Positions 3,001-20,837 of a stretch of 36,848 nt of DNA are shown here, in pieces. The stretch covers positions 1-36,848 of the forward strand of contig NVXP01000044.1 in assembly GCA_002733985.1 (NCBI GenBank), read 5' to 3'. The notes below the pieces were generated by a model. It saw nothing but the letters and a program-made list of their open reading frames with translations, was not told the origin of the DNA and did not search any database. Positions within the stretch are counted from its first letter, which is position 1. Every line of letters starts with the position of its first letter. Source of the stretch: Fluviicola sp. GTDB lineage: Bacteria > Bacteroidota > Bacteroidia > Flavobacteriales_D > Crocinitomicaceae. The translations under genes and the position numbers were made by a program.

Positions 3001-5163
3001 CTACTGAACTACAAATTTCTGTTGCTCCACTTTTCCATTGTGAATGATACGAACAAAGTACATTCCAGCGTTCAATCCTGAAACTGGAATCAGGTGAACA
3101 GATTCAGCTTCAAGCACAACAGCGCCATTTACATCAAGAATCTTAATTGAGTTGATTGATTCAGAAGTTAATCCACTCAAAGTAATTGTTTCGGCTGCTG
3201 GATTTGGATAAACAGACCACTTCAAATCCTGCTCGATGTCCACGGTTCCAAGAATTCCAAGCGCTAACTGAACAGCATGATACGCATTGATTTTTCCATG
3301 TCCCCAATATTCATCTCCATCTGCAGGAAGAACTCCTGTGTGGTTGTCTTCGCGAGCTGTTTGAATGATAATGTCTTTTACTTGAGCTGGAGTGAGAGTA
3401 GGGTTAGCATCCAAAATCAATGCAACGACACCAGCAACTACAGGCGATGACATGGATGTTCCACTCAATTTAGCAAAACCATATGTTCTTCCGTTGAAGT
3501 CAACACTAGCTATTGAAGTGTACGCCGCATCGGTATAAGATGACATGGATGATCCAACTTGAATTCCTGGTGCTGAAATGTCTGGTTTAAGTGTGTCATT
3601 AATCAATGGACCAACACTTGAGAAGTTCGCAAGTGCACCTCCAGCAAGCGTACCTCCGCCGGTATAAAAATTGGCGGCATATGCAGCAACTGTAATCGCA
3701 GAGAATGAACAGGCTGGTGCTCCAATTCCATACAAATCGTTTCCTGCAGTATAACCAGATCCCAAAGATGAGAAGGGCATTCCCCAGTTTCCAACATCTG
3801 ATGTTAATTCAGTGACGTTCCAATAGTGAACAGTTCCAGATGTAGCTTGAGATTTTAATACGATTCTGTAGCTTCCTGATGGACGTTTAACACGCAACCT
3901 TGCCTGAGGTCGTCCGTTTGTAGGATAAGCTGCATCGCACGAAAGATTGAAAAATACGGTATCTGTTCCAACAACAACAAAGCTATCAATGTAACTGGTC
4001 GTTGTAGCTGTCGAATAATAAGCACTTTCGGCGAGCAAGACATTTGATGTATTCATTATTTTTATTCCTATTGAATAAGGTTCTCCAGGCGTTCCCCAAC
4101 TCTGAATGCTTTGTCCCCAAAGAGTTGTGAGTGTTGATGAATTGTAAAAATTAATTCGTGTGAGCAATGAATCTGCGGCAAAGTCCTTTTTGATATGAAA
4201 GTCGGCACCACCGTTGTTCCCCGCTGAAGTCACAAATACAACTCCAAGACTTGAGTAATTGTCTAGCGCTTGACTAAGTAATGAAGTTCCATCAATTGAT
4301 TGCATGTGATATAATCCCCAGCTCATGTTAACGACCAAGCGTTTTCCTTCAGCATCTGCTTTGTTGTACATCCATTCCCAAGCATCTAAAACAGCGCTTT
4401 CATCGACTAAAAATGTTGTAAATAAGTAATTTGATTCGAATGCAATTCCTCGGTAAATTGTTCCGGCACCACTTCCTCCGGCAATTCCTGCAACGTGTGA
4501 GCCATGCGTAGCATATGAATAAATATTCGCTGTGTCCGATCCAACGTTTTGAAATTCCGTTGGAGTAGTGTATTCAGTACCGTATGCGTATCCGGATGGA
4601 GCAGGACCAGAATTTTTAAACTGATCCCAAGCTGCAAGAATTCGCGTATCGGCAAGTAAAGTATCGTAATACATAGGTGAGGAATAATCAAATCCCCAAT
4701 CGGTGATTCCAATGATAACATCTTTTCCTGTATATCCTTCCGGTAAATTGGCGCCCATCCAAACACTATCTGCACGAACATCACCAGGAACTTTACTCAA
4801 TAAGGGTTTGATTTTTCCCGCAATCTCGATGTAGGTGAAATTTACATCAGTTAGAATAGTTGAAAGTTCGTTAACAGGACATTTGAAACTAACAATGTCA
4901 TTGATTCGTGATCCTACTAATATTCCTCGGTTTTCTAATTCAGTCTGATTAAATTGAGCAGATGCTTTAGCAAGAAAAGCTACGTATTCCTGATCATTGA
5001 TTTTATTTACCGCAAAACGATTTCGAATTACATCAGAAACTTCACCGTGTGATTGTTGAAATTCGCTTAGAAGAAATTGAACATCTGCGCGTGTATTCCC
5101 GCTAGATTGAACCTGTGAAAGTCCTGCGAATGGTAATAGTAGAAGGATTAGAATGATTCTCAT
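3001..5163 (-). CDS. S8 subtilisin-like serine protease with T9SS sorting domain
   Basis: A signal peptide (MRIILILLLLPFAGLSQ) leads into a prodomain-like region (about 25-130) and a peptidase S8 domain. The catalytic triad is visible as D155 (IGITDWGFDY), H220 (THGSHVAG) and S570 (SGTSMSSP), with the oxyanion residue N316 (SAGNNGG). A stretch of about 250 residues, including a beta-rich insert around 330-480, separates N316 from S570, as in many secreted subtilases. Residues from about 647 (KWSVYPNPAAETI) to 720 form a type A T9SS C-terminal sorting domain ending in a KxxV-type tail. The protein is therefore expected to cross the outer membrane by T9SS and act at the surface or outside. Its substrate is unknown. 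It leads the pair with the RDD gene. Confidence 0.93.
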   Translation of the reverse strand: MRIILILLLLPFAGLSQVQSSGNTRADVQFLLSEFQQSHGEVSDVIRNRFAVNKINDQEYVAFLAKASAQFNQTELENRGILVGSRINDIVSFKCPVNELSTILTDVNFTYIEIAGKIKPLLSKVPGDVRADSVWMGANLPEGYTGKDVIIGITDWGFDYSSPMYYDTLLADTRILAAWDQFKNSGPAPSGYAYGTEYTTPTEFQNVGSDTANIYSYATHGSHVAGIAGGSGAGTIYRGIAFESNYLFTTFLVDESAVLDAWEWMYNKADAEGKRLVVNMSWGLYHMQSIDGTSLLSQALDNYSSLGVVFVTSAGNNGGADFHIKKDFAADSLLTRINFYNSSTLTTLWGQSIQSWGTPGEPYSIGIKIMNTSNVLLAESAYYSTATTTSYIDSFVVVGTDTVFFNLSCDAAYPTNGRPQARLRVKRPSGSYRIVLKSQATSGTVHYWNVTELTSDVGNWGMPFSSLGSGYTAGNDLYGIGAPACSFSAITVAAYAANFYTGGGTLAGGALANFSSVGPLINDTLKPDISAPGIQVGSSMSSYTDAAYTSIASVDFNGRTYGFAKLSGTSMSSPVVAGVVALILDANPTLTPAQVKDIIIQTAREDNHTGVLPADGDEYWGHGKINAYHAVQLALGILGTVDIEQDLKWSVYPNPAAETITLSGLTSESINSIKILDVNGAVVLEAESVHLIPVSGLNAGMYFVRIIHNGKVEQQKFVVQ

Positions 5164-9777: not shown

Positions 9778-10596
9778 TTATACTCTTGAAATCAATTCTT
9801 TCATAATTAACGTCATTTTCGGTTCTGCTTTACTCGCAACCGCAATAACATCTTCTACACTTACTTCTTGGATTTTCCCCGGTACGCCTAAATCAGTGAT
9901 GATTGAGATCGCAAAACAAGGAATGCTCATGTGACGTGCAACAATCACTTCTGGAACTGTTGACATACCTACGGTATCAGCACCAATTGCACGAACATAA
10001 TTGTATTCAGCAGGAGTTTCAAGTGTTGGTCCTGTTAAACCAGCATAGGTTCCCGTTGATACGAAAATATCATTTTCTTTAGCGATCTCCTTTGCTAGAG
10101 CAATCATCTTATGGCAATAAGGTTCACTCATATCTGGGAAGCGAGGTCCTAGTTCATCAATGTTTTTACCAATTAGTGGATGAGCAGGGAAGAGGTTGAT
10201 GTGATCATCTTGAATCATGATTTCACCGATTTCCATTGCTGGATTAACTCCACCAGATGCGTTACTGACAAACAAACGTTCAATTCCTAGAAACTTCATC
10301 ACGCGAACAGGGAACGTACATTCCTGCATTGTGTATCCTTCATAGAAATGGAATCGACCTTGCATCGCCATGACTTTCTTTCCTCCAAGTTCACCAAAAA
10401 TCAACTTTCCTGAATGACTTTGAACAGTCGAAACGGGGAAGTGAGGAATGTCCTTGTAAGAAATTTCATCAATGATATTGATTTCACTGACCAATCCACC
10501 AAGTCCAGTTCCTAGGATAATTCCTATTGTTGGTTCAACGTTTGTACGTGTCTTGATGTAGTCGTGGGATTCTTTAAACTTATCTAAAATATTCAT
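9778..10596 (-). CDS. Purine nucleoside phosphorylase (trimeric type)
   Basis: The enzyme phosphorolyses inosine/guanosine to the base and ribose-1-phosphate in cytosolic purine salvage. The 272 residues match the trimeric PNP/MTAP family. Visible motifs are the phosphate-binding ILGTGLGGL (about 27-35), HSGKL, the MQGRFHFYEGY loop, the SNASGGVNP purine-site segment and the MSTVPEVIVARH specificity segment. A Glu upstream in the LTGPTLETPAEY segment fits a purine phosphorylase of this family. The start overlaps the 3' end of lpxK by 17 nt. punA would be the likely symbol, but specificity cannot be fixed from sequence alone. Confidence 0.92.
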   Translation of the reverse strand: MNILDKFKESHDYIKTRTNVEPTIGIILGTGLGGLVSEINIIDEISYKDIPHFPVSTVQSHSGKLIFGELGGKKVMAMQGRFHFYEGYTMQECTFPVRVMKFLGIERLFVSNASGGVNPAMEIGEIMIQDDHINLFPAHPLIGKNIDELGPRFPDMSEPYCHKMIALAKEIAKENDIFVSTGTYAGLTGPTLETPAEYNYVRAIGADTVGMSTVPEVIVARHMSIPCFAISIITDLGVPGKIQEVSVEDVIAVASKAEPKMTLIMKELISRV

Positions 10597-11608
10597 CTAA
10601 AAGCGAGTTAAATGTTTTTTGATTTTTAATTCTTACTGTAATTGGTTGATAGTGCCATGCATTTTTTTTGTCGAAAACTTCATCAAATTGTTGCAATCTC
10701 ATGTAGTCTTTTTCCGTTGTAATGATGACTTTATTCTCGGAAGCGAATTTACCAAATTTTTCATGAATTGCCTTGATATCAGCAGTACTATAATTATGAT
10801 GATCTGGAAAAGCCATTAGCTCCACCGTGCATTTACTCTTCCAGTAATCGACGAGAGGAGTGGGATTTCCTATTCCAGTGACGATCAAAGCGTGTTCTAT
10901 TTCGTTTGTTTGAGCTTGGTTCGAGAATGACACTAAATCGTTGTATTCAAGGGATGAGAAAAATACCCGTTTTGCATCGAAGCCAAGTTTCCTGATAATT
11001 AATGATTCTTCATTACTGGGGATTTCACTTGGAGATTTGCTTACAACGACAATATCTGCTCGATTTTTACCTGCCTTCCATTCTCTTAAATTTCCTGTAG
11101 GAAGCATGAAATCATCAGAAAAAAGATCATTAAATGGTGTAATTAGAATAGAAAAACCGGCAGAAACAGCTCTGTGCTGAAATGCATCATCCAGAATAAT
11201 CAATTCATTTTTGGGAAATTGATTGATTATGTGGTCCACACCTTCCTTTCTTTTTTCGGCAAGAACAACCTTGATTTTACCTGGATAACGCTGAACGTAT
11301 TGCAAGGGTTCATCTCCAATTTCAGATGCAGTCGATTGATCAGAAGCAACAATGAGTCCATCCGTTTTACGACCATATCCGCGACTGAGAATCGATAGTT
11401 GCGTGTTCTTTGATAAGAAATACTGTATCAGGTAATCAACATGAGGAGTTTTCCCCGTACCACCGACAGATAAGTTCCCAACTGTGATTGATTTTTTTGG
11501 AATCCGATAAGATTTCAGAATGCTCCAATCGTAGGCTTTATTACGAAGAAAAGTAATAACACCATACAGCCAACTAAATGGCAAAAGGAGCCAACGAATC
11601 ACTTTCAT
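10580..11608 (-). CDS. lpxK: Tetraacyldisaccharide 4'-kinase
   Basis: LpxK phosphorylates the 4' position of the tetraacyl disaccharide to give lipid IVA on the inner-membrane cytosolic face. The 342 residues have the hydrophobic N-terminal helix (WLLLPFSWLYGVITFLRN, about 6-23) that embeds in the membrane. The characteristic P-loop VGNLSVGGTGKTPHV (43-57) follows, then LSRGYGRKT, GDEPLQY, the DDAFQHR motif and TEKDYMRL near the C terminus. It precedes PNP with a 17-nt overlap and follows the DUF4956 gene by 9 nt, in the same run as lpxH. Confidence 0.95.
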   Translation of the reverse strand: MKVIRWLLLPFSWLYGVITFLRNKAYDWSILKSYRIPKKSITVGNLSVGGTGKTPHVDYLIQYFLSKNTQLSILSRGYGRKTDGLIVASDQSTASEIGDEPLQYVQRYPGKIKVVLAEKRKEGVDHIINQFPKNELIILDDAFQHRAVSAGFSILITPFNDLFSDDFMLPTGNLREWKAGKNRADIVVVSKSPSEIPSNEESLIIRKLGFDAKRVFFSSLEYNDLVSFSNQAQTNEIEHALIVTGIGNPTPLVDYWKSKCTVELMAFPDHHNYSTADIKAIHEKFGKFASENKVIITTEKDYMRLQQFDEVFDKKNAWHYQPITVRIKNQKTFNSLLDEYFR

Positions 11609-11617
11609 GAATATAGA

Positions 11618-12274
11618 TCAAGCACTTAAATCTGTAACATTCTGGTCTTCAGAATAAAAGAAGATTCGTACTTGAGCAGTATCATCTAGGAAGTTAATTT
11701 TCCCTATTTCAAAACGGTTAATCTGTAGTCCAGTTCTTTCTTGAAGATCATCCATCATTTCCTTTTGTCTGCCTGGTACTATCAAATCGATTTTTTCGTA
11801 GACAATTGTTTTACGTGTTTCATGTTTTAAAAGGAAAACACGTTCCAATCCAAAGGTTAGAGCCACTAATGATACATTAATAACTGCCATTTCAGCAACA
11901 CTTACCTTATTTGAGGATAGCGAATTGATTACACTGACACCAATAATCAGAAACAAATAGGTCATTTCTTTTATTTCGATGGCATCGGTTCGATATCGTA
12001 TAATACCAAATATGGCAAATAATGCAAAGCCCATTCCATTGTCAATATCTAACTTCTTTAGACTAAAGCACAGGAAGAAAATGATTGTTCCAAGCAGGAA
12101 ATAGGTGAATAAATAATCCTTTCTCTTTGCTATCGGATAATACAAGTATCGAATGATAATTGTAATGAAAAAAGAATTTATCGCTAATCTTAATAACAAT
12201 GTATAAAAGTCTTTATCGAACCACGAGAAGTTGATTAGTTCTTCGAATGACATGGGAATGGTACTAAGTAGCAT
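11618..12274 (-). CDS. DUF4956 multi-pass membrane protein
   Basis: The 218-residue protein has about four transmembrane segments (roughly 25-45, 52-70, 76-92, 100-145) and a soluble C-terminal domain (about 155-218). The conserved block FGIIRYRTDAIEIKEMTYLFL is typical of DUF4956. The start as given (12274) overlaps the VTC gene by 11 nt; an internal Met at residue 8 (12253) would remove the overlap. DUF4956 genes commonly neighbour VTC-domain genes, as here, which suggests a joint membrane function whose chemistry is not established in bacteria. Confidence 0.82.
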   Translation of the reverse strand: MLLSTIPMSFEELINFSWFDKDFYTLLLRLAINSFFITIIIRYLYYPIAKRKDYLFTYFLLGTIIFFLCFSLKKLDIDNGMGFALFAIFGIIRYRTDAIEIKEMTYLFLIIGVSVINSLSSNKVSVAEMAVINVSLVALTFGLERVFLLKHETRKTIVYEKIDLIVPGRQKEMMDDLQERTGLQINRFEIGKINFLDDTAQVRIFFYSEDQNVTDLSA

Positions 12275-15719: not shown

Positions 15720-16406
15720 ATGTCTACCACTATTAAATCGATGCCCGTAAGTGAGCGTCCGCGTGAAAAATTATTAAATAAAGGGCGCGACTTTATCTCG
15801 AACACAGAATTAATTGCCTTGCTTATCGGATCCGGTACTAGAAATCAAAGTGCTATAGAAATCGCCTCAATAATTCTAAAGGATTCGAATAACGACTTAC
15901 AAGAATTGGCTAAAAAGTCAATTAGTGATTTAAAGAAGTTCAAAGGAATAGGTGATGCTAAAGCAATTTTAATTTATTCAGCACTTGAACTAGGGCGGAG
16001 AAAACCACTTTCTGAAGCTGCAAAGTATACAAGGTTGACATGCTCTCGGCATTGTTATGAATTCCTTTATCCTTATTTCGCTGATTTGACTCATGAAGAA
16101 TTTTACGCGGTTTATGTAAACAGAAATAATAAAATCATGGCAGTGCGTCAAATTTCGAAAGGAGGCTTGTCTGGAACGGTAGCAGATGGAAAAGTTATTT
16201 TCCAAAAGGCTTTAGAGGCCAGAGCAACGGGAATTGTTATAGCTCACAATCATCCCAGTGGAGTTGCAGATCCAAGTCCTGCTGATATGCACTTGACGAA
16301 ATCCTTACATAAATTTGGATTGATGATCGATTTACAAATCTTGGATCATCTCATCATTACAGACAATAACTACTTTAGTTTTGCGGATGAAGGCCTTTTG
16401 GGTTGA
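15720..16406 (+). CDS. radC: RadC-family JAB/MPN metalloprotein
   Basis: The 228 residues match the family length. An N-terminal helix-hairpin-helix-like region (about 15-95; SERPREKLL, FKGIGDAKA) precedes the JAB/MPN domain with the JAMM metal motif H176-N-H178-PSG...D189 (HNHPSGVADPSPAD). RadC was named for DNA repair, but its biochemical role is unsettled. The last 24 codons (16332-16403) recur, diverged, at 18336-18407, directly before the wecB-like gene. The ancestral order was probably radC followed immediately by that gene. The copy here is full length and intact. Confidence 0.95.
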   Translation: MSTTIKSMPVSERPREKLLNKGRDFISNTELIALLIGSGTRNQSAIEIASIILKDSNNDLQELAKKSISDLKKFKGIGDAKAILIYSALELGRRKPLSEAAKYTRLTCSRHCYEFLYPYFADLTHEEFYAVYVNRNNKIMAVRQISKGGLSGTVADGKVIFQKALEARATGIVIAHNHPSGVADPSPADMHLTKSLHKFGLMIDLQILDHLIITDNNYFSFADEGLLG

Positions 16407-16493
16407 TTGCATACTTTAGTATTAATCCCTCAATTATATGGTCAAGTGAATCACTGAATAGCTTAGAATAAATGGTGTTCTAATCCCCTCCAA

Positions 16494-16524
16494 TTTGGTA
16501 ATCGAAGTTGATTGACTATATTTG
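16494..16524 (+). promoter_or_regulatory. Promoter of the inserted acyltransferase-deacetylase cassette
   Basis: TTTG (16494-16497), a 19-nt spacer and TATATTTG (16517-16524) are a full match to the Bacteroidota consensus. A TTG codon at 16522 that could be read as a start lies inside the -7 box, so translation should begin at the ATG at 16579, leaving a leader of roughly 45-50 nt. The 172-bp gap after radC otherwise holds nothing recognisable. Confidence 0.6.
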
Positions 16525-16578
16525 GCTGCGTCTCAAAAGTGCAACAAATTTAGGCGCTCAACACCTTTGTTATTGATT

Positions 16579-17571
16579 ATGAGAAACGTAGGATCTGTCA
16601 TCTTGGCTTTTTTTCCATCATTTATTCATGTAAATATAAGAAGGTTGTTAGGCCAAAAGATTGGTAAAGGAGCCAAGATAAAATTTGGAACTTTGATCTT
16701 GTCGAGAAAGATTGAGATTGGTGCTCGGTCTAAAATTGGTCCTTTTGCTATCGTTAAATCAAAAGACCTTCGAGTAGGTGAGGACTCAATAATCAAGTCA
16801 CTCGCATTTGTGATTTCAAGAAAAATTCGAATTGATAGTTATGTGCATATTGCGCCTTTGTGTATAATAAAAGGTGGGTTTGGCATGAACTCTTCATTTG
16901 AAATCTCGGATCATAGTAGAATTTTCCCATTTTGTTGGATCGATTGTGCTGAGGGTGTTAAGATTGGAAACAATGTTGGAATTGGTGGATTTTCACTTTT
17001 GTTTACTCATGGTGTTTGGTCCAATTTTGTAGATGGTGGTCCCGTTTCTTTCAAACCAATTGAAATAGGAAACAACGTTTGGTTGCCATGGCGTGTTTTT
17101 ATTCTTCCAGGTGTTAAGATTGGTAATAATGTTATTGTTGGAGCAAATTCTCTAATTAATAAATCTATTGATGATAACTCTTTAACGGCAGGGTCACCTG
17201 CTAAGCATATTAGATACCTTGAAGAGACAAATTCTGAAGAAAAGAGAGCACGTTTTATTGAGATTCTTAATGAGTATGCAAAACAGCTCAATTTCGAGCA
17301 CGACAGCACTAATTGTGTAGTTGAAAACCATCAATTGCATTTTAATGATTATAATCTTTCAATAGACGACTGCTCTGGATTAAAGAGAGGTGATTTATTG
17401 GTCTCATTATCAGTTGAAAGTGAAGATCAAATGAAGGAACTGAGAAATAAAGAGATATCCATTTTTGATTACAGTACTTTAACGATCCACTTGAATAAAC
17501 CTCATAAATTCACCAAAGAGTTTGTTCCTTTTTTGCGAAAATTTGGGGTGAGATTATACGAGAACAAATAA
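16579..17571 (+). CDS. Left-handed beta-helix (hexapeptide repeat) acyltransferase with extra C-terminal domain
   Basis: From the ATG at 16579 the protein has 330 residues. Repeating hexapeptides such as IGKGAKIKFG, IEIGARSKIG, LRVGEDSII and VKIGNNVGIG build a left-handed beta helix over about 25-205. A catalytic-type His occurs in LLFTHGVW, and the coil VKIGNNVIVGANSLI ends in AGSPAKHIR, as in WbbJ/maltose-type O-acetyltransferases. The donor is probably acetyl-CoA and the acceptor a surface sugar, but neither can be read from the sequence. Beyond the helix, about 100 extra residues (from LNFEHDSTNC to the end) form an unrecognised domain. It has its own promoter and lies 12 nt before a NodB-like gene. 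Both genes sit between the two radC 3' ends, which suggests acquisition by transfer. Confidence 0.83.
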   Translation: MRNVGSVILAFFPSFIHVNIRRLLGQKIGKGAKIKFGTLILSRKIEIGARSKIGPFAIVKSKDLRVGEDSIIKSLAFVISRKIRIDSYVHIAPLCIIKGGFGMNSSFEISDHSRIFPFCWIDCAEGVKIGNNVGIGGFSLLFTHGVWSNFVDGGPVSFKPIEIGNNVWLPWRVFILPGVKIGNNVIVGANSLINKSIDDNSLTAGSPAKHIRYLEETNSEEKRARFIEILNEYAKQLNFEHDSTNCVVENHQLHFNDYNLSIDDCSGLKRGDLLVSLSVESEDQMKELRNKEISIFDYSTLTIHLNKPHKFTKEFVPFLRKFGVRLYENK

Positions 17572-17583
17572 TATACGATACCT

Positions 17584-18297
17584 ATGCCTTTAATTCTTAG
17601 AGTAGATGTAGACAAGCCTTATGGTCGATCAAATATGCTCCAGAAAGTTTTAAGTAAGACTCGTGAGGATCTTTGGTTTCCGGCAATAAATATGATTGGG
17701 TACTTGTCTACATCAGAAGCGCTGCTTGATTATTGTAATCAGAATGATATCCGAGGGATCTTTTATTTTAGAAATTGTACTTCCCCAAATTCAAAAATTA
17801 AAGGGTTGATGGCGAAAGGAAACCATGCCTTTGGTTTTCATGCAGAGAACACAAGAACAACAGAAACATTTCAAAGTGAACTAAGTAGTATGAAGAAAAG
17901 TGTTCCTAATGGAATGCTTCATTCGTTTACAAAGCATGGATCTGGGAAATTAAAACTTGGGAAAAACCATTATCCTCCTTATGAACCTGAAAAATATAAA
18001 GAGTGGGTTCAAACAATGGGAGTCCCATTTTATTTTGGCAATGAGGTAGTTGAGGAGATGGATGATTTTAGCCCCGTTGATGGTTTTTACCCAAAAATGT
18101 TCTGGCTCAAGAAAGAATATAGAATAGAATCTTTTGCCACAATCGAAGATGTGATTTCTGCAGCAAAAACTGAAACAGTACCTATTATCATTCACCCTGC
18201 GAATTTTGTAGCAGACACCTTTGTGAATAGTGAGTTAAAACGTCTAGTTGATTTATCCAAGGAAAACAACATTGATTGGATAACTGAGATGAGCTAA
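17584..18297 (+). CDS. NodB-like polysaccharide deacetylase-type protein (inserted cassette)
   Basis: The 237-residue protein opens with RVDVDKPYG (D8, D10), the usual Asp-Asp position of carbohydrate esterase 4 (NodB) folds. GFHAENTR (H86) could supply a metal His, and IIIHPANFV near 201-209 matches the C-terminal His motif. There is no signal peptide, so it probably acts in the cytosol on a nucleotide- or lipid-linked sugar. The family removes N- or O-acyl groups from glycans; this copy is divergent and the substrate is unknown. It pairs with the acyltransferase 12 nt upstream and is followed by 37 bp of non-homologous sequence and then the radC remnant. Confidence 0.72.
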   Translation: MPLILRVDVDKPYGRSNMLQKVLSKTREDLWFPAINMIGYLSTSEALLDYCNQNDIRGIFYFRNCTSPNSKIKGLMAKGNHAFGFHAENTRTTETFQSELSSMKKSVPNGMLHSFTKHGSGKLKLGKNHYPPYEPEKYKEWVQTMGVPFYFGNEVVEEMDDFSPVDGFYPKMFWLKKEYRIESFATIEDVISAAKTETVPIIIHPANFVADTFVNSELKRLVDLSKENNIDWITEMS

Positions 18298-18334
18298 ATG
18301 TTCTAGTCAAAAGCAAACTAAATTCAACATCCGT

Positions 18335-18410
18335 TTTACAAATTTTAAAGCATCTGATCATTACAGACAATAATTACTTTAGTTTTGCAGACGAAGGTAT
18401 ACTTGGATAA
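18335..18410 (+). pseudogene. Remnant of the 3' end of a second radC allele
   Basis: The 76 nt align without gaps to the end of the intact radC (16331-16406) with 61 identities. Translated in frame they give 24 codons plus a stop; 22 of 24 residues are the same (HLIITDNNYFSFADEG is shared). Of 11 differing sense codons, 9 are synonymous, so the two alleles diverged while still coding. Homology ends abruptly upstream of 18335, and the stop codon directly touches the ATG of the wecB-like gene at 18411. This is a recombination scar, not a gene. A TAGTTTTG element inside it (18380-18387) could serve as the -7 box for the downstream operon. Confidence 0.85.
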
Positions 18411-19565
18411 ATGAATCAACGAAAGAAAATTATTACGATTGTAGGTGCACGACCACAAATTATTAAGTCATCTGCAATAAGTAGAGCAGTTCAAAATGTA
18501 TTCTCAGAGCAACTGGAGGAAATAATTGTTCACACTGGGCAGCATTATGATGAGAACATGTCAAAAGTTTTCTTCGAAGAGATGAATATCCCAACTCCAC
18601 ACTATAACTTACAAGTTGGAAGTGGGTCTCATGGTCAGCAAACTGCTCGAATGCTGGAAGGACTAGAAACTATTTTTCTAGATGAAAAACCTGACGGAGT
18701 TGTTGTCTACGGCGATACTAATTCAACGATTGCTGGAGCGTTAGCAGCTGCGAAGATTTATATTCCTGTAATTCATATTGAAGCTGGATTAAGAAGTTTC
18801 AACAAAGCGATGCCTGAAGAATTGAATCGTATTTCATGTGATCATATGTCTACGTTATTGTTCACCCCCACAGAAACCGGATTAACGAATCTGTCGAACG
18901 AAGGCTTTAAATTAGATCATTCGCCAAAAGCAACGATCGATTCTCCCAATGTCTATCATTGTGGAGATATTATGTACGACAACAGTTTGCATTTTTCAAA
19001 AGTTGCAGATCAATTCTCGTCAATTCTTGAAAAAGAAGGATTAAAAGTGAATGAGTTTGTTCTCATGACTGTCCACAGAGATACCAACACTGATATCGCT
19101 GAAAACCTAGAAGCAATCTTTAGTGCCGTTGATGAATTGTCAAAAGAGCACAATATGACCTTTGTTCTTCCTTTGCACCCTCGAACGAAAAGTAAATTGG
19201 AATCTCAATTATCAGAAAGTTTGTACCAACAAGTGATGCATTCTGAATTGATCAAAATAATTGATCCAGTAGGGTTCATGGATATTATCGTATTGGAAAA
19301 GAACGCATGCATGGTTGTTTCTGATAGTGGAGGCTTGCAGAAAGAGTCTTTTTTCTTTGAAAAGCCATGTGTAATCTTGCGTGAACAAACTGAATGGATA
19401 GAGATTGTTGAGAATGGAAATGCTATTCTTACTGGAGCAAATCACGACAAAATAATTGATGCGTTTAACACCTTATTTCAACGAGAAAACTTCACTTATC
19501 CTAGTTTTTATGGTGATGGGAAAGCTGCAGAATTTATTTGCGGTAAAATAGTTGACGAAATTTAA
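18411..19565 (+). CDS. wecB: UDP-N-acetylglucosamine 2-epimerase (non-hydrolysing)
   Basis: This cytosolic enzyme interconverts UDP-GlcNAc and UDP-ManNAc for surface polysaccharide synthesis. The 384 residues match WecB/MnaA. Family motifs are VGARPQIIK (11-19), HTGQHYDENMS (41-51), GDTNST (D102), HIEAGLR (E124), PEELNRISCDH (E137), and SDSGGLQKES near 305-314. D102, E124 and E137 correspond by motif to E. coli D95, E117 and E131. It starts directly after the radC remnant stop and lies 3 nt before a polysaccharide deacetylase gene. The symbol is by family; a related 2-epimerase acting on another UDP-sugar is possible. Confidence 0.88.
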   Translation: MNQRKKIITIVGARPQIIKSSAISRAVQNVFSEQLEEIIVHTGQHYDENMSKVFFEEMNIPTPHYNLQVGSGSHGQQTARMLEGLETIFLDEKPDGVVVYGDTNSTIAGALAAAKIYIPVIHIEAGLRSFNKAMPEELNRISCDHMSTLLFTPTETGLTNLSNEGFKLDHSPKATIDSPNVYHCGDIMYDNSLHFSKVADQFSSILEKEGLKVNEFVLMTVHRDTNTDIAENLEAIFSAVDELSKEHNMTFVLPLHPRTKSKLESQLSESLYQQVMHSELIKIIDPVGFMDIIVLEKNACMVVSDSGGLQKESFFFEKPCVILREQTEWIEIVENGNAILTGANHDKIIDAFNTLFQRENFTYPSFYGDGKAAEFICGKIVDEI

Positions 19566-19568
19566 TAG

Positions 19569-20837
19569 ATGACTCATATTTATGTTGATCAGATATCGCC
19601 CCGAATCAAATATACGTTTGAATTCATTTTTGGATCGCGTGGATTGACATATACGCTGACGGATGATACATCAGCTCAAGTGGACTTGTCTTACTCACAG
19701 AATAGTATTGATTTTCCTTCTGCGCTTCCAATGGCAGCTTTTATGTTGAATGGAAAAGTGGAGCAAATAGCCCCTGAAGTATCAAAATACTCAGTTGATT
19801 TAGAGTGTTTTTCCTTTAATTCAATCGTTGATCCGATCGCTTCGATTTTTTATTTACTCTCGCGCTACGAAGAATATATTTGTCAGGAAACAGATGAATA
19901 TGGACGATTTCCATTAAAAGAATCAAGCGCACCTAAGAACTGGCTCATGAAGTCGATGTGTGATCGGTGGGCGGAAGAAATACTATCCTTGGCTGGAGTA
20001 AATGGAATTCCTCAGGGAAGAAAGGTGAAAATCATTCCATCATTTGATATTGATAATACCTACGCTTACAAGCTTAAGTCGGGTAAACGAAAATGGATGT
20101 CAATTTTCAAGGACCTTCTTAAGTTCAATTTTAACCGTATTCAAGAAAGAAGAGCTGTACTAAAGGGAGGTGAAAATGACCCTTACGATACCTTTTCGAA
20201 GATTAGATCTGTTCATAAACGATTTCCAGAGACAAAAGTGTTTTGGTTGATTGGGAAATGGGGTAAAAAGGACAGGAATATTTCAATTCAGAACGCGGAA
20301 CACCGGAAGTTGATTAAATCGTTATCCGATGATGGCATTGATATCGGTTTGCATCCAAGTTTTGGGTCTTTTCAAAGAAAAGAAACGATTACTCAGGAGA
20401 AGAAGGAACTCGAATCTGTTTGTGGAAAAGAAATTGCATTGTCGCGACAGCATTTTTTACGTTTTCAAGTGTCAACAACCTTATCAGATCTAAATTCAAT
20501 AGGATTCACTGATGAGTATTCAATGGGATTCGCCGAGCACCCTGGATTTAGATCAGGTACAGCCAGACCACATCAATGGTTCGATTTACGCACGAACAAA
20601 ACAACCGAATTAATTATTCATCCTTTTGCATACATGGACGGAACATTGCGTGAGTATATGCAGTTGTCTATCGAAGATAGTAAGAGAATAATTCGTCAAT
20701 TGTATGACGAGGTAAACCGCTATGGAGGAGATTTCATTTTTATCTGGCACAATGAAACAATTGGTGACTACGGAAATTGGAAAGGTTGGAGCGAAGTCTT
20801 GGATTTCACATTATCTTTAGAGGATGAATCGAACTAG
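19569..20837 (+). CDS. Polysaccharide deacetylase-family protein with N-terminal accessory domain
   Basis: The 422-residue protein has an N-terminal region of about 150 residues (including IASIFYLLSRYEEY, 90-103, and GRFPLKES), typical of the accessory domain preceding Bacteroidota polysaccharide deacetylases. A NodB-like domain follows, with IIPSFDIDNTYAYK (D160, D162), DIGLHPSFGS, RQHFLRF, LIIHPFAYMDGTL and FIWHNETIGD. There is no signal peptide, so a cytosolic action on a precursor glycan is likely. It follows the epimerase by 3 nt and overlaps the DUF423 gene by 14 nt. It shares its fold with the deacetylase in the inserted cassette but is much longer. Confidence 0.83.
   Translation: MTHIYVDQISPRIKYTFEFIFGSRGLTYTLTDDTSAQVDLSYSQNSIDFPSALPMAAFMLNGKVEQIAPEVSKYSVDLECFSFNSIVDPIASIFYLLSRYEEYICQETDEYGRFPLKESSAPKNWLMKSMCDRWAEEILSLAGVNGIPQGRKVKIIPSFDIDNTYAYKLKSGKRKWMSIFKDLLKFNFNRIQERRAVLKGGENDPYDTFSKIRSVHKRFPETKVFWLIGKWGKKDRNISIQNAEHRKLIKSLSDDGIDIGLHPSFGSFQRKETITQEKKELESVCGKEIALSRQHFLRFQVSTTLSDLNSIGFTDEYSMGFAEHPGFRSGTARPHQWFDLRTNKTTELIIHPFAYMDGTLREYMQLSIEDSKRIIRQLYDEVNRYGGDFIFIWHNETIGDYGNWKGWSEVLDFTLSLEDESN

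Follow-up and report, generated by a model that had tools for sequence, protein, structure and literature searches.

A 36,848-nucleotide (nt) stretch of DNA from Fluviicola sp. (contig NVXP01000044.1 of assembly GCA_002733985.1; the whole stretch is called the window) carries radC, a gene of DNA-repair type, whose last 76 nt occur twice, once at the end of the intact gene and once, in diverged form, directly in front of wecB. Judged by the gene order of relatives, two genes, predicted to encode an acyltransferase and a deacetylase-like protein, have been inserted at the radC–wecB junction in this lineage, and comparison of the two tails identifies the downstream one, the remnant, as the end of the resident radC. 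Below, W denotes this genome's copy in the window, G000 its assembly, and the other G-numbers the other genomes compared; the features described from radC to the VimE-like gene lie on the plus strand.

The intact radC (15720–16406, 228 amino acids (aa)) belongs to the UPF0758/RadC family, matching Pfam PF04002 (E 1.4e-37) and PF20582 and scoring over the cut-off of NCBIfam PRK00024. A repeat search flagged a direct repeat of 85 nt (79%, spacing 2004), and an ungapped comparison of the radC 3′ tail (16331–16406) with the remnant (18335–18410) gave 61 identities in 76 positions, with 15 exchanges and a longest identical run of 17 nt; the best unrelated 76-mer on both strands of the window reached 39/76. 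Both copies read in frame up to the stop and share 22 of 24 residues (the exceptions being D to K and L to I), and nine of the eleven differing sense codons are synonymous. The original prediction had given these counts, and a direct recount bore them out. Extending the homology of the remnant further upstream would require two gaps, and that claim was dropped; the 37-nt stretch at the right-hand junction (18298–18334) showed no clear ungapped radC homology in local alignments. At 16412–16420, 5 nt 3′ of the intact radC stop, TACTTTAGT repeats the same 9 nt that stand in both radC tails, by chance or as a trace of the joint.

The insertion was not seen in relatives. Seventeen radC loci were mapped, each in a different further genome of this genus: behind radC come wecB and a VimE-like gene in 12 of them and just the VimE-like gene in 5, and in none of the 17 does the acyltransferase–deacetylase pair lie between radC and the sugar gene. 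A nagZ-like gene stands on the other side of radC in 15 of these loci; two contigs begin inside radC, and the G013 contig stops just inside wecB. The end of radC could be read in 25 genus genomes; the nearest sugar gene after it is wecB in 18 of them and a VimE-like gene in the other 7, with its start anywhere from 8 nt inside to 36 nt past the end of radC. In the window, the gene at 18411–19565 encodes a WecB-type non-hydrolysing UDP-GlcNAc 2-epimerase (Pfam Epimerase_2, E 1.4e-100; TIGR00236 over cut-off), the ancestral radC neighbour, and is followed, again in the ancestral order, by a gene for a VimE-like (DUF7033) deacetylase at 19569–20837 (PF23019; NF053580 VimE, E 4.8e-50, 170 bits against a cut-off of 440). 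The remnant abuts this wecB just as radC does in G023, G032, G013 and G008. Since the pair is absent from the junction in relatives and the remnant abuts wecB as their radC does, the insertion is the derived state, and the insertion proposed for this junction by the original prediction stands. The 172-nt spacer behind the intact radC (16407–16578) is not in the relatives, whose radC abuts wecB or the VimE-like gene, and arrived with the insert.

The sugar genes at the junction vary within the genus: wecB is absent between radC and the VimE-like gene in G016, G012, G033, G021 and G026 (loci L063, L064, L066, L067 and L068). A radC match is absent in G001, G003, G011 and G027, and the match in G015 contains stops.

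Comparison with the closest tails tells the two copies apart. The remnant agrees with G023 and G032 at 71 of 76 positions and with G013 and G008 at 68, and the intact tail, the odd copy, agrees with G023, G032, G013 and G008 at 62, 62, 63 and 64 of 76, respectively. GAC, GGT and ATA codons are common to the remnant and G023/G032 and are not found in the intact tail; the C-terminal glycine codon of G023, G032, G013 and G008 is present in both tails. With 71/76 identities to G023 and G032 and the same abutment to wecB, the polarity preferred at the outset, in which the remnant is the resident tail, was supported. The neighbourhood points the same way. A left-flank tree built from the concatenated lpxK, VTC-domain and nagZ-like genes joins W with G023 (support 99), and the grouping of G023 with G013 is rejected (p 0.004); this tree omits pnp and the gene at 11618–12274, neither of which singly groups W with G023. 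The right-flank tree of four genes places W with G023 and G032. The remnant thus groups like most of its neighbourhood, which leaves the intact tail as the odd copy. The omitted DUF4956 gene at 11618–12274 places W beside G017/G007 and not beside G023 (0.895), a further hint of recombination near the locus, and recombination here may extend beyond radC.

Both genes between the tail copies are intact open reading frames (ORFs). The first (16579–17571) encodes a hexapeptide (LbH) acyltransferase of the sugar acyltransferase type (Pfam Hexapep, E 1e-14), with NCBIfam matches of the WbbJ/WcaF type, every displayed one of which lies under its cut-off. Its 237-aa partner (17584–18297) had no Pfam or NCBIfam match, and the CE4/NodB Pfam profile did not match any of five members of its family up to E 1. 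An AlphaFold2 model built from 12 sequences (pLDDT 84) found its best PDB match in the CE4 peptidoglycan deacetylase 5jmu (E 6.4e-6, TM 0.54, rmsd 6.8); the matches that follow are other barrels, with the CE4 esterase 2c71 at rank 8. The predicted fold makes a divergent NodB-like deacetylase a fair but soft label. Upstream of the acyltransferase gene, pattern scans, blastn and the sigma-A −7 consensus mark a promoter-like sequence, TTG-N19-TATATTTG (16495–16524), a type of pattern that occurs nine times on both strands of the window. Its −7 part falls within a 17/19 match upstream of the G008 acyltransferase gene (E 0.75, weak on its own), where the −7 box is present and the full TTG pattern is absent.

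The pair is rare. The 237-aa partner is present in 2 of 34 genus genomes (W and G008); in a sample of 399 genomes of the order, 5 have it, these two among them. A scan of named genomes gave 14 loci, in 8 of which the acyltransferase lies immediately 5′; G008, G163, G208 and G380, whose contigs are also counted within the eight, have the two genes side by side with their order unchanged. ORF translations suggest that its setting in G008, G163 and G208 is one of polysaccharide genes, which in G008 would be the main polysaccharide cluster. The same pair in the same order is seen in polysaccharide clusters of Bacteroidota, whereas here it is found by itself, behind radC. The identity of the inserted pair to that of G008 is only 54%. 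W and G008 have largely collinear main polysaccharide clusters; in W the slot of the pair is filled by other ORFs, of 564 and 273 aa (G000 contig 102, L100, 8826–11417); the 564-aa ORF has a 63% homologue in G023, in a different context. A move of the pair within the genome, out of the main cluster, was considered and set aside, given the 54% identity to G008 and the homologue of the slot ORF elsewhere in G023.

The acyltransferase and the deacetylase-like protein would modify a surface sugar. VimE of Porphyromonas gingivalis is described as a putative deacetylase of the Wbp/Vim pathway, which makes the linking sugar of proteins secreted by the type IX secretion system (PMC7468200). The WecB-type epimerase and VimE-like deacetylase encoded behind the remnant recall that pathway, as a similarity only, the VimE model being under its cut-off. 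A single glycan as the target of all four genes is a guess based on where they lie.

A composition comparison of 16407–18334 with its flanks, as proposed with the original prediction, could be made and proved uninformative. The G+C content of the two inserted genes is 0.347 and 0.361, against 0.368–0.396 in eight other genes, and at third codon positions 0.287 and 0.303 against 0.299–0.359; in 500-nt windows the insert lies at 0.33–0.37 and the flanks at 0.35–0.39. With G+C merely slightly lower in the insert, composition was not retained as proof of foreign origin.

The explanation we rank first, at somewhat below even confidence, is an insertion of foreign DNA that left the end of radC split into a coding copy and a control copy. 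An ancestor would have gained a small transcription unit (the promoter-like sequence, the acyltransferase gene and the deacetylase-like gene) at the radC–wecB junction, from incoming DNA in which this unit was linked to a radC 3′ end and which most likely arrived by uptake. One side would have paired with the resident radC, and the other would have been joined, with no homology involved, slightly within the end of the resident radC. The incoming tail would then complete radC, and the resident tail would be displaced to the front of wecB, where it would have been retained because in this genus the radC end also belongs to the control region of the following gene. Once the end was split, the upstream copy would have kept its protein code as its synonymous sites drifted, and the downstream copy would have kept a conserved DNA block, drifting 5′ of that block.

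A joint of this kind has a proposed precedent. Homology-facilitated illegitimate recombination has been proposed for effector–immunity arrays of the type VI secretion system of Vibrio cholerae, with a homology anchor at one end, an illegitimate joint at the other and the ancestral segment shifted downstream (PMC5361080). In the Vibrio cholerae system whole immunity genes are displaced; here it is a 76-nt gene end. Within the collection of papers searched, none combines radC, wecB and Bacteroidetes.

We are inclined, as a matter of judgement, to see the intact tail as foreign DNA that entered together with the insert. A tree of the tails (69 nt) places the remnant with G023 and G032 (78/91), apart from the intact tail. 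Several results nevertheless weigh against the proposed explanation, and those on the origin of the intact tail come first. The tree of the radC body (608 nt) prefers G023 with G013 over W, weakly (75/74), and the grouping of W with G023 is not rejected there (approximately unbiased test, p 0.285). The tail tree puts the intact tail beside G017 and G007 (69/73), which is implausible, and 69 nt tell little; the two tails as sisters are not rejected (p 0.084), and neither is a grouping of all four (p 0.073). A donor in which radC is followed by the pair was not found: radC is present in none of the 14 pair loci (up to ~10 kb on each side, several contigs being shorter), nor did the pair loci among the 399 genomes of the order yield one. 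A breakpoint inside radC was also considered; a mild shift of site patterns appears in the last third of the gene, and the tree tests give it no support. With these p values for body and tail and no demonstrable breakpoint, the earlier claim that the intact radC tail is foreign is unproven.

The same p values leave room for an account that competes solely with the foreign-tail part, in which the insertion itself doubled the resident radC end, by a long target duplication or a template switch, and the intact tail diverged later, freed from control. The glycine codon shared by both tails with G023, G032, G013 and G008 would follow naturally from such a local duplication, and the conservation pattern is compatible with it. 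Against it, one copy alone would have had to collect about ten changes within 51 nt since the insertion, because the GAC, GGT and ATA codons are shared by the remnant and G023/G032, and the tail tree favours separated copies. We consider a local duplication rather unlikely.

The control-copy part of the proposed explanation draws on synonymous conservation. Codon conservation was scored in 8-codon windows over ten genus genes, with 8 to 14 genomes each, giving 2104 overlapping windows. The radC end is the second-best spot, holding ranks 7–10 of the 2104, with only a spot in lpxK higher; the starts of fabI and pnp also score high. Pairwise within the genus, same-residue codons differ at frequencies of 0.54–0.57 in the radC body. 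Over the last 17 codons the figures are 4/16, 4/17 and 0/16 for the pairs formed by G023, G013 and G008, and 2/15 for G017 with G007 (tail-versus-body tests for the four pairs: p 0.018, 0.019, 1.6e-5 and 0.003). This unusual synonymous conservation is a possible reason for the retention of the remnant. The highest score of all lies inside lpxK (10580–11608), at alignment codons ~277–289 around ATTCATGAAAAATTTG, possibly another hidden element.

The two copies have inherited this conservation unevenly. Against G023, G013 and G008 the remnant differs at 1/17, 3/16 and 3/17 same-residue codons, within the range of the relatives. The intact tail differs at 7/16, 7/17 and 6/16, with body values of 0.60, 0.58 and 0.50; this is not significantly lower than the body (p 0.21–0.44), although it is still numerically below it, and 16 codons give little power. 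The remnant shows five differences from G023 in its first 25 nt and none in its last 51 (Fisher p 0.003, with the boundary set post hoc), and the intact tail has ten differences from G023 in its last 51 nt (p 0.001 against the remnant). A 32-nt block at 18360–18391 is the same in G023, G032 and the remnant, and an exact-pattern search found it in 7 of 177 loci, each from G000, G023 or G032; with the synonymous conservation in the genus, it is a candidate control element. It includes TAGTTTTG (18380–18387), 23 nt 5′ of wecB, which fits TAnnTTTG, given as the flavobacterial sigma-A −7 consensus in PMC9723704. The control role may be that of a promoter or of a translation-start region, either equally possible.

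The radC end in this genus may thus be dual-purpose and now split into a coding copy and a control copy. More specifically, the last ~50 nt of radC in the genus would serve both as the RadC C-terminus and as control of a surface-sugar gene, the insertion would have been viable only if this boundary was doubled, and the copies would since have divided the two functions; this version is tentative, and we hold it to be doubtful. The original prediction had itself allowed that the 76 nt might be a conserved functional element in front of wecB-like genes, found without any radC nearby. That possibility holds in part, through the synonymous conservation in the genus and through G024 (L059, 7720–7851), where all that is left of radC, between the nagZ-like gene and wecB, is roughly its last 44 codons.

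Among 22 radC genes of other genera the tail is not special, its best window ranking 17 of 217. One genome from another genus of the family, G202 (L122, 750–1800), has a different ORF between radC and wecB, with the wecB match 824 nt away; a second radC tail was looked for there and not found. An undoubled tail in G202, combined with a tail that is not specially conserved outside the genus, is what a control copy restricted to the genus would lead one to expect, in a single case.

Other results on this part fall on the opposite side. The best radC windows outside the genus include codons 199–206, just 5′ of the tail. In comparisons of the W clade with G017/G007, conservation of the tail scarcely exceeds that of the body: the remnant differs at 7/14 and 8/15 codons, G023 at 6/14 and 7/15 and the intact tail at 6/13 and 6/14, with bodies at 0.55–0.64. 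The full pattern TTG-N17-23-TAnnTTTG occurs in 6 of the 25 tails of genus relatives and is absent from the remnant. The bare TAnnTTTG box occurs in 23 of 25 tails in the genus, and also in 10/39 and 13/28 outside it, the latter being tails with no sugar gene within 40 nt (28 of 92 tails have none in that range); since the box is frequent outside the genus too, it was dropped as proof of a promoter. With a VimE-like next gene in 7 of the 25 genus genomes, the element is not specific to wecB.

In another account the remnant is plain debris: its likeness to relatives would come only from constraint on radC before the insertion. This bears solely on the control-copy part. The conservation seen in relatives could wholly predate the insertion, and the first 25 nt of the remnant carry changes, D to K included, that are unseen in the four close relatives. 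Decay would then have to be uneven, with five differences in 25 nt beside none in 51, on a boundary chosen post hoc. Constraint before the insertion would explain part of the conservation of the remnant; that it explains all of it, we hold to be rather unlikely.

As the original prediction had noted, no integrase or transposase is visible. A Pfam scan of 32 of the 36 window ORFs of at least 100 aa found no integrase, transposase or resolvase families; the remaining four (at 4407, 7675, 9626 and 17007) overlap scanned genes in other frames. No tRNA was found in the window. The remoteness of a site-specific origin that this seemed to imply has shrunk, with radC being a documented insertion site. 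Integrative and conjugative elements (ICEs) and integrative and mobilizable elements (IMEs) of Mesorhizobium are described as adjoining radC (PMC8627217), a Staphylococcus aureus transposon lies in radC, which is there called a frequent integration site (PMC11769447), and a transposon and an island are reported in radC of Macrococcus (PMC6008420). What these elements share with the present insertion is radC as the site. They differ in that the Mesorhizobium IMEs are given as at least 5.8 kb (PMC8627217) and those of Macrococcus as having transposases (PMC6008420), and in that the Firmicutes insertions lie inside radC.

A close anatomical parallel is e14 in icd of Escherichia coli K-12. There the element itself supplies the upstream icd end. 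The duplicated end of the icd/icdC pair is reported to measure 165 bp and to differ by 12 nt exchanges and two residue replacements, both conservative (PMC11148124). In both cases the frame is intact upstream and a duplicate of the gene end stands at the other side of the insert, here with 76 nt, 15 exchanges and two residue changes. Unlike the prophage e14, the present insert consists of only two genes, both for sugar modification, with no recombinase found between the copies, and directly behind the displaced end comes the gene that followed radC ancestrally.

This anatomy, which matches e14/icd (PMC11148124), and the record of radC as an insertion site (PMC8627217, PMC11769447, PMC6008420), a further point against our preferred explanation, are the case for a decayed site-specific element. 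Its integrase would have used the radC 3′ end as an attachment site, which the element restored with a copy of its own, and the recombinase would later have been lost, leaving two cargo genes. The documented insertions into radC led us to raise the weight of this account and to lower that of the explanation ranked first. Against it stand the absence of a recombinase from the 32 scanned proteins, a size of merely ~2 kb, a longest identical core of 17 nt and a cargo that is a normal pair of polysaccharide clusters. Use of the radC 3′ end as an element site was not seen in the genus either, as the junction is uninterrupted and the sugar gene lies directly behind radC in 25 of 25 relatives. Whole-genome matches in 60 genomes gave a tail-only copy beside a full radC only in G000, and no second tail copy was found at the protein level downstream of 91 tails (up to ~1.8 kb behind each; farther copies could escape). 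We regard a decayed element as improbable. An assembly artefact fusing two strains is hardly credible: the assembly has 174 contigs, but both copies are full, differ at 15 positions and share no run longer than 17 nt, which places the join outside any collapsed repeat, and to the left and right the genes follow in the order seen in relatives.

Returning to the insertion of foreign DNA with a split radC end, this type of insertion is itself already known, and the division into coding and control copies suggests a testable twist on it. Duplications of a host gene end that flank insertions are usually taken as traces of an integrase. If the split is real, it would add another reason for both copies to persist: the gene end holds the control sequence of the next gene, and selection keeps each copy for one task. 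It is also a warning for annotation, which would dismiss the remnant as a fragment. For the Bacteroidota, the locus places a sugar acyltransferase–deacetylase unit outside the usual polysaccharide clusters. As a coding copy and a control copy side by side, the two tails form a small natural test pair, and this genome would, if the proposal holds, represent a natural separation of two layers of information that had shared one DNA segment.

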